This document shows, one piece after another, positions 28,710-32,457 of a stretch of 32,457 nt of DNA (positions are counted from its first letter, which is position 1; each line of letters starts with the position of its first letter). Both the position numbers and the translations under genes were made by a program. The DNA comes from Rhodocyclaceae bacterium. GTDB taxonomy: Bacteria; Pseudomonadota; Gammaproteobacteria; Burkholderiales; Rhodocyclaceae. The stretch covers positions 1 to 32,457 of the forward strand of contig JAPUEC010000260.1 of NCBI GenBank assembly GCA_027492775.1, read 5' to 3'. A model generated the notes under the pieces. The model had not been told where the DNA came from. It did not search any database and was given only the letters and a program-made list of their open reading frames with translations.

Positions 28710-30305
28710 ATGGACGTGGATCAGGCATTGTGGGAATGGCGCGATATTCTGGGCGATTCGAGGGTCCTCGGCGCCGAGTCGGCAACAACGATCTACAGCG
28801 TCGACGCCAGCGGTTTCCAGCGCCGTATCGCCGGTGCCCTGAAAATCAAGGATGCGAGTTCGCTACCGGCGATCGTCTCGATCGCCAGCCGCCTCGGCAT
28901 TCCGATCTACCCGATCAGCACCGGCAAGAACTGGGGCTACGGCACTTCGCTGCCCGTACGCGACGACTGCGTCATCGTGGACCTCGGCGAACTCAACCGT
29001 ATCCTGGACTTCGACGCCGAACTTGGCGTTGTCACCCTCGAACCCGGCGTCACCCAGCAGCAACTGGCGGAATTCCTCGAACAAGGCGGCCATCCTTTCC
29101 TGGTTCCGGTCACCGGTGCCGGCCCGAAGTGCAGCCTGGTCGGCAACGCGCTCGAGCGCGGCTATGGGATCACGCCGCATGCCGACCACTTCGGCGCGGT
29201 CACTGACCTGGAAGCGGTGCTCGCCGATGGCAGCATCTACCGGACGGCACTGCATGAAGCCGCCGGCGAGGATTTGGCGCGGCTCTTCAAATGGGGACTC
29301 GGACCCTATTCGGCGGGATTGTTCACCCAGAGCGGATTCGGTATCGTCACCCGCATGACCATCGCCCTGGCGCGTCGGCCGGAACAGGTCAAGGCCTTCC
29401 TCTTCAGCCTGCGCTCCGACGATTTGCTGGAAACAGCCGTTGAACGCATCCGCGGCCTGCTCGCCGCACTTCCCGGAACCGTCGGCGCCGTCAACTTGAT
29501 GAACCAGCGCCGGGTCCTGGCCATGTCCTCCCCCTTCCCTTCCGACCAACTCGACGCCCAAGGCATGATCCCGGAAGCTCTCCTGCAAAAGATGGGGCGG
29601 CAATATCAGATATTTCCGTGGACTGGCTTCGGAACGCTGTATGGAACACGGCGCATGGTCAAGGCAGCCCAGAGCGAAATTCGTCGGGCGCTGTCGGGCG
29701 TCGCCAGCCGGCTGATCTTTCTGAGTCCGACTCAGGCGCAAACGCTGGCGGATCTTGCCCGCTTTGTCCCGGGAGCGGGTGCCCAGAAACTGGCGAGGAC
29801 GGCGGCCACGCTCGCGAAATCGCTGCAACTTGTCGCCGGCCGGCCCAACGAAACCGCCCTCCCCTTGTGTTACTGGCGAAACCCGGGCGCGCCAAAGGGC
29901 CCGGGGCTCGACCCGGCGCGCGACGGCTGTGGCCTCATCTGGTATGCGCCCCTGGTCCCGATGCGTCCTCAGGCGGTGCGCCAGTATGTCGACATGGTCC
30001 GGCGCGTGGCGTTTGCCCACCGCATTGAACCGTTGATCACCTTTACTTCCGTCAGCGACAAGATTTTCGATAGCACCGTGCCGCTGATATTCGAGCGTGA
30101 GGATGCGCTGGCCCAGAAAAGTGCCGAGGAGTGCTATCACGACCTGTTGTCGGCTGGCCACGCCATCGGATGTTTCCCCTATCGCGTCGGAATCAACACC
30201 ATGGCGACGCTGAGCGGCGCCATGGAGCATTCGCGCACGTTCCATGCTCGCCTTCGGGCTGCCCTCGATCCGGCGGATATCCTCTCCCCGGGGCGGTACA
30301 GCTGA
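28710..30305 (+). CDS. FAD-linked oxidoreductase, VAO/4-cresol dehydrogenase family
   Basis: A 531-residue flavoprotein. The FAD-binding PCMH domain (about 45-230) has PIYPISTGKNWGYGTS at 66-80, very like the pyrophosphate loop of 4-cresol methylhydroxylase and vanillyl-alcohol oxidase. VIVDLGELNRIL, VTLEPGVTQQQLAEFL and GNALERGYGITPHADHFG follow in the family order. The C-terminal cap domain ends with LRAALDPADILSPGRYS, the usual end of this superfamily. There is no signal peptide, so it is likely cytoplasmic. I start at the ATG at 28710 (the frame is open from 28410 inside the permease gene), with only a weak GGGCGG ahead. No cytochrome subunit gene (as for cresol dehydrogenase) is next to it. 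The substrate, perhaps a phenolic alcohol, is not predictable. Confidence 0.87.
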   Translation: MDVDQALWEWRDILGDSRVLGAESATTIYSVDASGFQRRIAGALKIKDASSLPAIVSIASRLGIPIYPISTGKNWGYGTSLPVRDDCVIVDLGELNRILDFDAELGVVTLEPGVTQQQLAEFLEQGGHPFLVPVTGAGPKCSLVGNALERGYGITPHADHFGAVTDLEAVLADGSIYRTALHEAAGEDLARLFKWGLGPYSAGLFTQSGFGIVTRMTIALARRPEQVKAFLFSLRSDDLLETAVERIRGLLAALPGTVGAVNLMNQRRVLAMSSPFPSDQLDAQGMIPEALLQKMGRQYQIFPWTGFGTLYGTRRMVKAAQSEIRRALSGVASRLIFLSPTQAQTLADLARFVPGAGAQKLARTAATLAKSLQLVAGRPNETALPLCYWRNPGAPKGPGLDPARDGCGLIWYAPLVPMRPQAVRQYVDMVRRVAFAHRIEPLITFTSVSDKIFDSTVPLIFEREDALAQKSAEECYHDLLSAGHAIGCFPYRVGINTMATLSGAMEHSRTFHARLRAALDPADILSPGRYS

Positions 30306-30335
30306 ACCTGTCGACTTTCCTTACAAGGATTCCCC

Positions 30336-30391
30336 AAATTGACAAGTAGGCAGCTTCGCCCAAGCGATAGCTGATGATAAATTGACAAATA
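30336..30391 (+). repeat. two 13-bp direct repeats upstream of the PEP-CTERM gene
   Basis: AAATTGACAA(G/A)TA occurs at 30336-30348 and again at 30379-30391, start to start 43 bases, close to four helical turns. Such same-face direct repeats upstream of a sigma-54 type promoter can be activator binding sites. The second copy contains TTGACA, so it may also be part of a sigma-70 promoter. The function is inferred only. Confidence 0.5.
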
Positions 30392-30409
30392 ATCAAATAG
30401 TTATAAATA
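30382..30409 (+). promoter_or_regulatory. possible sigma-70 promoter for the PEP-CTERM gene
   Basis: TTGACA (30382-30387) is a perfect -35 hexamer. TAAATA lies 16 bases later (30404-30409) as a fair -10 hexamer, in very AT-rich DNA. It would give a leader of about 95 bases. It overlaps the direct repeat and is a competing or additional promoter to the sigma-54 site. Confidence 0.4.
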
Positions 30410-30422
30410 AGCCGCACTCCCC

Positions 30423-30438
30423 TGGCACAGCAGATGCT
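30423..30438 (+). promoter_or_regulatory. sigma-54 (-24/-12) promoter candidate for the PEP-CTERM gene
   Basis: TGGCACA-N4-ATGCT matches the sigma-54 consensus TGGCACR-N4-TTGCW at all but one of the specified positions. GG (30424-30425) and GC (30436-30437) are exactly ten bases apart. The start of transcription would be near 30449, about 63 bases before the ATG. Known biology supports it: PEP-CTERM genes in Zoogloea-type bacteria are reported to depend on RpoN and the PrsK/PrsR two-component system. No activator gene lies in the window. Confidence 0.7.
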
Positions 30439-30511
30439 TACGAGGAAGCATGCGGAAATTGAAATCAAAAACCGCGCGATATTCCCCCACAGGTTCATTA
30501 GGAGAAACTAA

Positions 30512-31258
30512 ATGAAAGCAATCAAAAAGGCGGTTCTGGCTTCGGCAGTAGCCCTGGCTCTGACCGGCTCGGCATACGCCTCGCCGATTAATGTTGGCGG
30601 CGTGGTCTGGGATCCGAATTCGGCCCAGGACTTTTCCGGCGTTAGCGCGACTCTGAGCCAGACGATCAACCCGGCAACGGGCGAACTGTCCGGCTTCGGC
30701 GTCATCACCACGCTCAATGGTCAACCGGTGAGCAGCTTCTGCCCGGGTTGCGAATTGACCGTGCGTTACTCCGGTTACACCCCGATCGGCGGCGTTGCCC
30801 TTCCGGGTCCTGGCGGCGGCGGCACGGCCATCAGCTACACCGGCGGCCTGGTCAATGTCTACGTCGACCATACCCCCAACGCCCCGGTGAGCGATCCCTC
30901 CCTGCTGAACACCGCAAACACTACCGACGGCGATTTGTGGCTGTCTCTGGTTGGCCACGCGATCAACGGCGTGACCCTGACCGGCTACAACTTCTTCCCA
31001 ACCCTGCTGCTGGGCGGCGGTTTGTGGGATGTTGTCGGCGGCCTGGCCCAAGGCAACCTGGACACCAACACCAAGACCGATGGTGCCGACCTGAGCTTCT
31101 CCAACAGCTTTACCACCTTCCCGACGGGCTCGCCCCTGGTGGCTTGGGGTTCTGGCAACTTCAACGGCAACAGCATCCCCGAACCGGGTTCGCTGGCACT
31201 CGCCGGCCTGGGCCTGCTCGGTGCCGCTGCCCTGCGTCGCCGCAACAAAGCCAAGTAA
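30512..31258 (+). CDS. PEP-CTERM sorting domain protein
   Basis: A 248-residue exported protein and likely exosortase A substrate. It has a signal peptide (MKAIKKAVLASAVALALTGS, cleavage after about residue 23), a glycine-rich, probably beta-sheet mature region, and a C-terminal sorting signal: the PEP motif at 223-225, a hydrophobic helix (LALAGLGLLGAAAL) and the basic tail RRRNKAK. The mature part contains FCPGCEL, a CxxC pair at Cys77 and Cys80, which could form a disulfide or bind metal. AGGAG seven bases before the ATG is a strong ribosome site. A sigma-54 promoter candidate lies upstream and a bidirectional terminator follows. XrtA should cleave near the PEP motif and attach or release the protein at the cell surface, where it may help hold cells in EPS. 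Confidence 0.93.
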   Translation: MKAIKKAVLASAVALALTGSAYASPINVGGVVWDPNSAQDFSGVSATLSQTINPATGELSGFGVITTLNGQPVSSFCPGCELTVRYSGYTPIGGVALPGPGGGGTAISYTGGLVNVYVDHTPNAPVSDPSLLNTANTTDGDLWLSLVGHAINGVTLTGYNFFPTLLLGGGLWDVVGGLAQGNLDTNTKTDGADLSFSNSFTTFPTGSPLVAWGSGNFNGNSIPEPGSLALAGLGLLGAAALRRRNKAK

Positions 31259-31273
31259 TCGAAATACCGCTGC

Positions 31274-31303
31274 AAAAAAAGGCCCGCTTCTGCGGGCCTT
31301 TTT
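31274..31303. terminator. bidirectional intrinsic terminator
   Basis: GGCCCGC (31281-31287), loop TTCT and GCGGGCC (31292-31298) form a perfect seven-bp GC stem. It is flanked by seven A on the left and five T on the right, which extend the stem and give a U-tract in both directions. It lies 15 bases after the PEP-CTERM stop and 15 bases before the stop of the convergent minus-strand gene, so it can end both transcripts. Confidence 0.93.
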
Positions 31304-31318
31304 CTTTGGTTTTCGATT

Positions 31319-32457
31319 CTAAAAACTGTAGCGGATCTCGGAAAATATCCGGTCTTGACGGTTGTATTGACCGAAAAGACCGAGAGGTGGGCCTTTGAAG
31401 ATGTCCGCGCCGAACGTCCAGCGCCAATTCTTCTCCATCGCCCAAGTCAACTTCGGGCGGAACAGCCAATCTCCTCGGTTCAGGCTGGAGATCCACAAAG
31501 CCTGCGCTTCAACCGCATCCCCGAATTTCTTGCTTAGATAAACGCTATAGCCATTCTCGTTTTTTCGGGGAACGATGTCGGGATCGTGATCGGGGAAGTT
31601 TCGTTGGAACAGTTGAACGTTCAGACGCGTTTCCGCTGGCAATGTGAAATCCAAGCCAACCGCCCAATCGAGCGTATCCTGCCCGACCACGCCATTCGGC
31701 GCATTCAGCCGCCACACTCCGAATTTGCGCCCTTGGGTGTACACCGCTTCGCCTTTCAAAACGACCGAACCGAAATCCTTGGCCAAGGTCCCGCCAAATT
31801 GATTGATGCGCTCGTGCCGGGCCTGGAAAATCATGGTGGAACCGACAATCTCACGATAGAAAGTCGGCGAGTTATCCATGCTGCTGTAATAGAAGCCCGA
31901 GATGTCCCAACCGTTCTTCAAGGTGGAGAGACGAACACCGTAGTTTCCATGTTGCAGATTCCTTGCCGGGCGGATCTCCGGTCGATAAGCGGCACTGAAA
32001 CCCGGCGCGACCGGCTGGTAAGGATAGAAATCGGCGCCCGGCTTGCCGATCTCGTCATAGCTCGCCACCGGAATCCACACCGCTTCGGCGTGGAAATCAT
32101 CCTTGAAATACTCGGCCCGCGCCGCCCACTGCGGGATGCGAAGGCTCTCGAAATCCGGCAGGATGAATTCGCGCATGTCGCGTGCGGAAACCACGTCGGC
32201 GAAAAACAGCCCGACCATTTCCCCCCAAACCACGTGCTGGCGCCCGAGGCGGAAATCCCAATTTCCGGTGCTGTAATCGAGATAGTTTTCCCTGAGCGTC
32301 AGGTTGAAGCGCTGATTATTCGCGACCTGGGCCGGATAAAAGCTCGTGTGGTCATAGACCGCGTCGTAGTCAGCGCGGGCGCTCAATTTCCATTTGAGGC
32401 CATCGCCAAGATCACCACGCGAGGCGAGCTCGGCGCGCGTACGCATTTTTGACCAAT
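31319..32457 (-). CDS. outer-membrane beta-barrel protein, DUF1302-like (partial)
   Basis: At least 379 residues of a protein that runs off the right edge. The frame stays open to the last base, so the ATG at 32446 is probably internal and the signal peptide lies outside the window. Alternating hydrophobic and polar residues, many aromatics, and the terminal sequence FSEIRYSF (final Phe) mark an outer-membrane barrel. The region LGRQHVVWGEMVGLFFADVV and then REFILPDFESLRIPQWA recalls DUF1302-type proteins, which often sit beside lipid or hopanoid-type transporters. It is convergent with the PEP-CTERM gene and shares its terminator. On the same strand, about 2.7 kb away, are the two ABC permeases, so a trans-envelope system is conceivable. 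The family call is by resemblance only. Confidence 0.78.
   Translation of the reverse strand, partial: WSKMRTRAELASRGDLGDGLKWKLSARADYDAVYDHTSFYPAQVANNQRFNLTLRENYLDYSTGNWDFRLGRQHVVWGEMVGLFFADVVSARDMREFILPDFESLRIPQWAARAEYFKDDFHAEAVWIPVASYDEIGKPGADFYPYQPVAPGFSAAYRPEIRPARNLQHGNYGVRLSTLKNGWDISGFYYSSMDNSPTFYREIVGSTMIFQARHERINQFGGTLAKDFGSVVLKGEAVYTQGRKFGVWRLNAPNGVVGQDTLDWAVGLDFTLPAETRLNVQLFQRNFPDHDPDIVPRKNENGYSVYLSKKFGDAVEAQALWISSLNRGDWLFRPKLTWAMEKNWRWTFGADIFKGPPLGLFGQYNRQDRIFSEIRYSF

Follow-up and report, generated by a model that had tools for sequence, protein, structure and literature searches.

The DNA upstream of a PepA-like PEP-CTERM protein gene (positions 30309–30451 of the window, the whole 32,457-nucleotide stretch analysed) very probably acts as a PEP-CTERM-class promoter under PrsK/PrsR and RpoN, with bending by IHF as part of its mechanism. 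To judge from its sequence it is a genuine RpoN (sigma-54) switch of a kind already described; it belongs, with good support and as an unexceptional case, to the PEP-CTERM promoters that Haft et al. described in 2006. The class probably shares a grammar in which the distances between a PrsR site, a -24/-12 element and an IHF site, which can face either way, vary only by whole turns (~11 bp), such that bending and phasing would be part of the switch in many families. Judging by the literature searched, this phased arrangement of three elements had not been described for the class.

The PepA-like gene and its surroundings

The gene (30512–31258, forward strand) encodes a protein of 248 aa that has both a signal peptide and, at 30.2 bits against PF07589 (cut-off 20.7), a PEP-CTERM tail. 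Among named families it comes closest to floc_PepA, which is associated with flocculation (NF033554; E = 2.7e-15); because the match is full-length but its 56.9 bits lie below the curated cut-off of 80, the gene is described here as PepA-like and not as a certified PepA. A Rho-independent terminator-like hairpin on the 3′ side (31276–31303, forward strand) is consistent with a single-gene unit. The window also encodes exosortase XrtA and several XrtA-associated proteins, and an Rfam scan of the window gives no match at gathering scores.

The regulators of the class are encoded in the same genome, with adjacent genes on contig C88 for PrsR (745.5 bits; cut-off 502.6) and PrsK (881.8 bits; cut-off 300); RpoN and IHF-alpha (ihfA) are encoded as well.

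On the left side of the promoter is a FAD-binding oxidase gene (28710–30305), which in several genomes (L120, L022, L056, L057) is the neighbour of a PepA-like gene, in varying orientations; the recurring adjacency suggests a functional tie. To the right of the PepA-like gene is a leftwards-transcribed gene for a DUF1302 protein (31319–32457, minus strand), part of which shares 67% identity with a DUF1302 protein encoded close to a PEP-CTERM gene in another genus of the same family (L025).

The sigma-54 promoter and motif 1

The putative sigma-54 -24/-12 promoter, motif 2 of the class, is CTGGCACAGCAGATGCT (30422–30438, forward strand). TGGCACA begins at 30423, with GG at 30424–30425 and GC at 30436–30437, giving precisely the GG-N10-GC spacing that had been pointed out in the sequence-only reading. 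It is the top sigma-54 match on both strands of the window at 16.0 bits, with a runner-up of 13.0 bits, and stands well above chance; the matrix was built by hand from the consensus with no published matrix behind it, and these scores are relative. Of 100 PEP-CTERM genes, most of them taken from genomes in this order, 61 have an upstream site scoring 13 bits or more, as compared with 1.5% of shuffled regions, and the window site shares the position common to the 61. Sigma-54 geometry places the expected transcription start at 30449 (forward strand), 12 nt past the C of the -12 element.

De novo motif discovery by expectation-maximisation in the 160 nt upstream of 60 promoters yields TGTCGGAATTTTTTACA in ~93% of them. 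This is motif 1 as described in 2006 by Haft et al., who proposed that PrsR binds this 17-nt sequence with TTTACA at its end (PMC1569441). When the matrix is trained on the 60 other promoters, excluding that of the window, TGTCGACTTTCCTTACA (30309–30325, forward strand) scores 18.8 bits and the second-best match in the window 8.2 bits; the same site is retrieved by an exact pattern search of the genome. This presumed PrsR enhancer site has the 17-nt length and the (T)TTACA end of motif 1, lies just past the preceding gene's stop codon, and is less typical than most in having a CTTTCC core. The sequence-only reading had overlooked motif 1. Its proposal of RpoN control, with PrsK/PrsR as a guess, is well supported by the class promoter, by motif 1, and by the presence of genes for RpoN, PrsK and PrsR.

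In six promoters of the genome, motif 1 is accompanied by a sigma-54-like site; in one the motif has a single mismatch, and in two the sigma-54-like site is weak (9.4–9.5 bits). Five of the six lie ahead of PEP-CTERM genes, the sixth ahead of a gene for a protein with a Tat-type signal. On contig C88 of this genome (G000), which also carries prsK and prsR, motif 1 and TTGGCTTGTTTATTGCT (17.0 bits) are found at a spacing of 95 with an IHF-like site, upstream of a gene whose 218-aa product carries the Tat-type signal (RRRLLRGG; L121). On contig C257, motif 1 occurs twice on the same strand, ~155 nt apart (L125/L126), and there is no sigma-54 site 40–130 nt downstream of the better copy.

Spacing and helical phasing

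Motif 1 and the sigma-54 site of the window are separated by 96–97 nt. For the class as described by Haft et al., the spacing has a mean of 62.8, an SD of 10.6 and a range of 32–92 (PMC1569441), so the window at 97 is above the reported maximum; the class assignment nonetheless stands because that range is descriptive, not defining, and promoters with spacings of 94–100 exist in the same order. These promoters were found by searching 389 genomes of the order with a pattern of motif 1 followed by TGGCAY-N6-TGC, which gives at least 212 matches as compared with none for a reversed control pattern. Among the matches listed, spacings group at 50–55, 60–65, 72–77, 81–88, 94–100 and 105, with steps of ~11 bp (52, 63, 74, 85, 96), and the window falls in the fifth cluster. 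The best period for the matches listed is 11.1–11.2 bp with a vector length R of 0.74, which drops to 0.67 after removal of the main peak; the maximum in 2000 smoothed nulls is 0.22. In a phylum-wide sample, matches occur in 6 of 219 genomes, too few for a phasing test beyond the order. The 2006 description (PMC1569441) mentions neither helical steps or phasing nor an IHF site, and the window promoter has both.

The putative IHF site

Between the presumed enhancer and the promoter, at the class position 19 nt before the TGG, is AATCAAATAGTTA (30391–30403, forward strand), which agrees with the IHF consensus WATCAANNNNTTR at 9/9 positions; the consensus by itself is short and degenerate, and this is its only perfect occurrence in the window. 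Perfect matches are present in 12 of 57 promoter spacers, where 0.5 would be expected from dinucleotide-preserving shuffles. Among 80 further promoters fetched later there are 17 perfect sites and 51 with at least 8/9, and the means for 300 permuted consensuses on these same promoters are 0.8 and 13.9 respectively.

The sites are also positioned, with those in forward orientation 5–7 or 16–19 nt before the TGG and those in reverse orientation 17–20 or 28–31 nt before it. Phased sites of this type are present in 77 of 137 promoters, as compared with 2.7 in mononucleotide shuffles and 5 after a 5-nt shift of the position windows, although the 77 is somewhat flattered since the positional windows were picked after viewing both sets. 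The training set and the later set each show the same position peaks.

It is unlikely that the enriched element is instead an intrinsically bent AT-rich sequence or the site of some other protein. The element is judged by its agreement with a consensus, and HU-family paralogs are likewise encoded in the genome; however, the matches fit a specific 9-position consensus (17 perfect sites against the permuted mean of 0.8) and the IHF-alpha gene exceeds its curated cut-off. Occupancy by IHF is the preferred reading. A literature search found no PEP-CTERM or exosortase promoter linked to an IHF site; a paper on IHF in Geobacter has merely one PEP-motif gene, in a transcriptome table.

Other elements in the spacer

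The spacer also contains a perfect TTGACA hexamer, which with TAAATA (30382/30404) could form a sigma-70 promoter. That the gene is mainly transcribed from it is very unlikely: the -10 fits at only 3/6 positions, a sigma-70 scan around the gene reports no site, TTGACA is in no other spacer among the 137, and the AT-rich stretch holds the IHF consensus instead.

A direct repeat, AAATTGACAA(G/A)TA, is situated in the spacer at 30336–30348 and 30379–30391, with 12/13 positions identical and the copies 43 bp apart. Its other strand contains TGTCAATTT, which resembles one half of motif 1. It was dropped as a class element, being in no other spacer of the 137 promoters.

The inverted repeat over the -12 element

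The arms ATGCTT (30434–30439) and AAGCAT (30446–30451), separated by ACGAGG, form a perfect 6 bp inverted repeat, as the sequence-only reading had observed. The repeat is incidental. Perfect 6-bp repeats with loops of 3–8 are common, with 106 in the window, and repeats of at least 6 bp lie over the -12 in 2 of 61 promoters, as compared with ~1.1 expected when the downstream bases are shuffled; it was consequently dropped as a class feature. The exact pattern ATGCTT-N6-AAGCAT was found once, and was defined only after it had been sighted. The conserved TGCTT of the class -12 accounts for its left arm; in that sequence the TGC has 95–100% identity among the 61 promoters, followed by T at 92% and T at 75%.

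The repeat had been proposed to be either an operator or a hairpin at the start of the message. As an operator, a repressor or a PrsR dimer bound to it would block the -12 region; the perfect arms span the -12, and the fold of the 18 nt is more stable than that of most shuffles (z -3.3). This role is highly improbable, as the repeat is absent from the same-genus homolog (L120), from a 51%-identical homolog in the same family (L119) and from all five further promoters of the RpoN/PrsR type in the genome, its frequency in the class does not exceed chance, and the left arm is already accounted for by the -12 consensus. A hairpin acting on message stability or translation is extremely improbable: the 18-mer by itself folds at -4.2 kcal/mol, but with a start near 30449 its left arm and loop are upstream of the start and would not be in the RNA, it is not the predicted fold of the longer fragment 30423–30511 (z 0.47), and the leader, if it starts at 30449 as expected, has no unusual structure (z -0.57).

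Proposed operation of the promoter

In the PrsK/PrsR-RpoN reading, phosphorylated PrsR would bind motif 1 (30309–30325) while sigma-54 RNA polymerase waits in the closed form at 30422–30438. IHF at 30391–30403 would bend the 97-bp spacer such that PrsR, on the same face of the helix, could contact the polymerase and open it by ATP hydrolysis, with transcription presumably starting near 30449. The single-gene message would then give rise to a PepA-like surface protein as a substrate for sorting by exosortase XrtA.

PEP-CTERM proteins help to bind activated-sludge flocs and biofilms together. With the full promoter grammar known, the PrsR regulon could be read from sequence, and the grammar predicts that IHF, usually a growth-phase-linked factor, has a role in floc formation.

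Comparison with related loci and known systems

A genome of the same genus (G002) has a similar arrangement, with a FAD-dependent oxidase gene (70% identical) likewise preceding a PEP-CTERM gene. Its promoter contains motif 1 (TGTCGAAAATTTTTACA), an IHF-like site (AAACAAGTAATTA; 8/9) and a sigma-54 site (CTGGCATACCTACTGCT), with a spacing of 95–96, element distances nearly as in the window, and no inverted repeat. A MAFFT alignment of the same-genus upstream region left the promoter elements out of register.

Control of PEP-CTERM genes and floc formation by PrsK-PrsR has been reported in Zoogloea resiniphila, as summarised from earlier work (PMC9012009). The pepA gene of Aquincola tertiaricarbonis has a primer-extension start behind TGGCAC/CTGCTT and its transcription is RpoN1-dependent; in that organism the mutant was not complemented by a prsK/prsR cassette (PMC9850573). 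The window promoter is similarly organized, with an RpoN -24/-12 before a PepA-type PEP-CTERM gene and TGGCAC and xTGCTT boxes. Whereas the start has been mapped and RpoN1 dependence measured for Aquincola pepA, both are predicted for the window promoter, and the neighbouring genes differ in that prsT is adjacent in Aquincola and not at the window locus.

The nif-type promoters are IHF-assisted sigma-54 promoters. The general mechanism of such promoters has been described (PMC7962754), and the window promoter is like them in having an IHF site between the enhancer and the promoter, where bending would help contact. It is unlike them generally in that its predicted activator is PrsR, the enhancer distance is short and, in the class, varies in ~11-bp steps, and the IHF site can be in either orientation.
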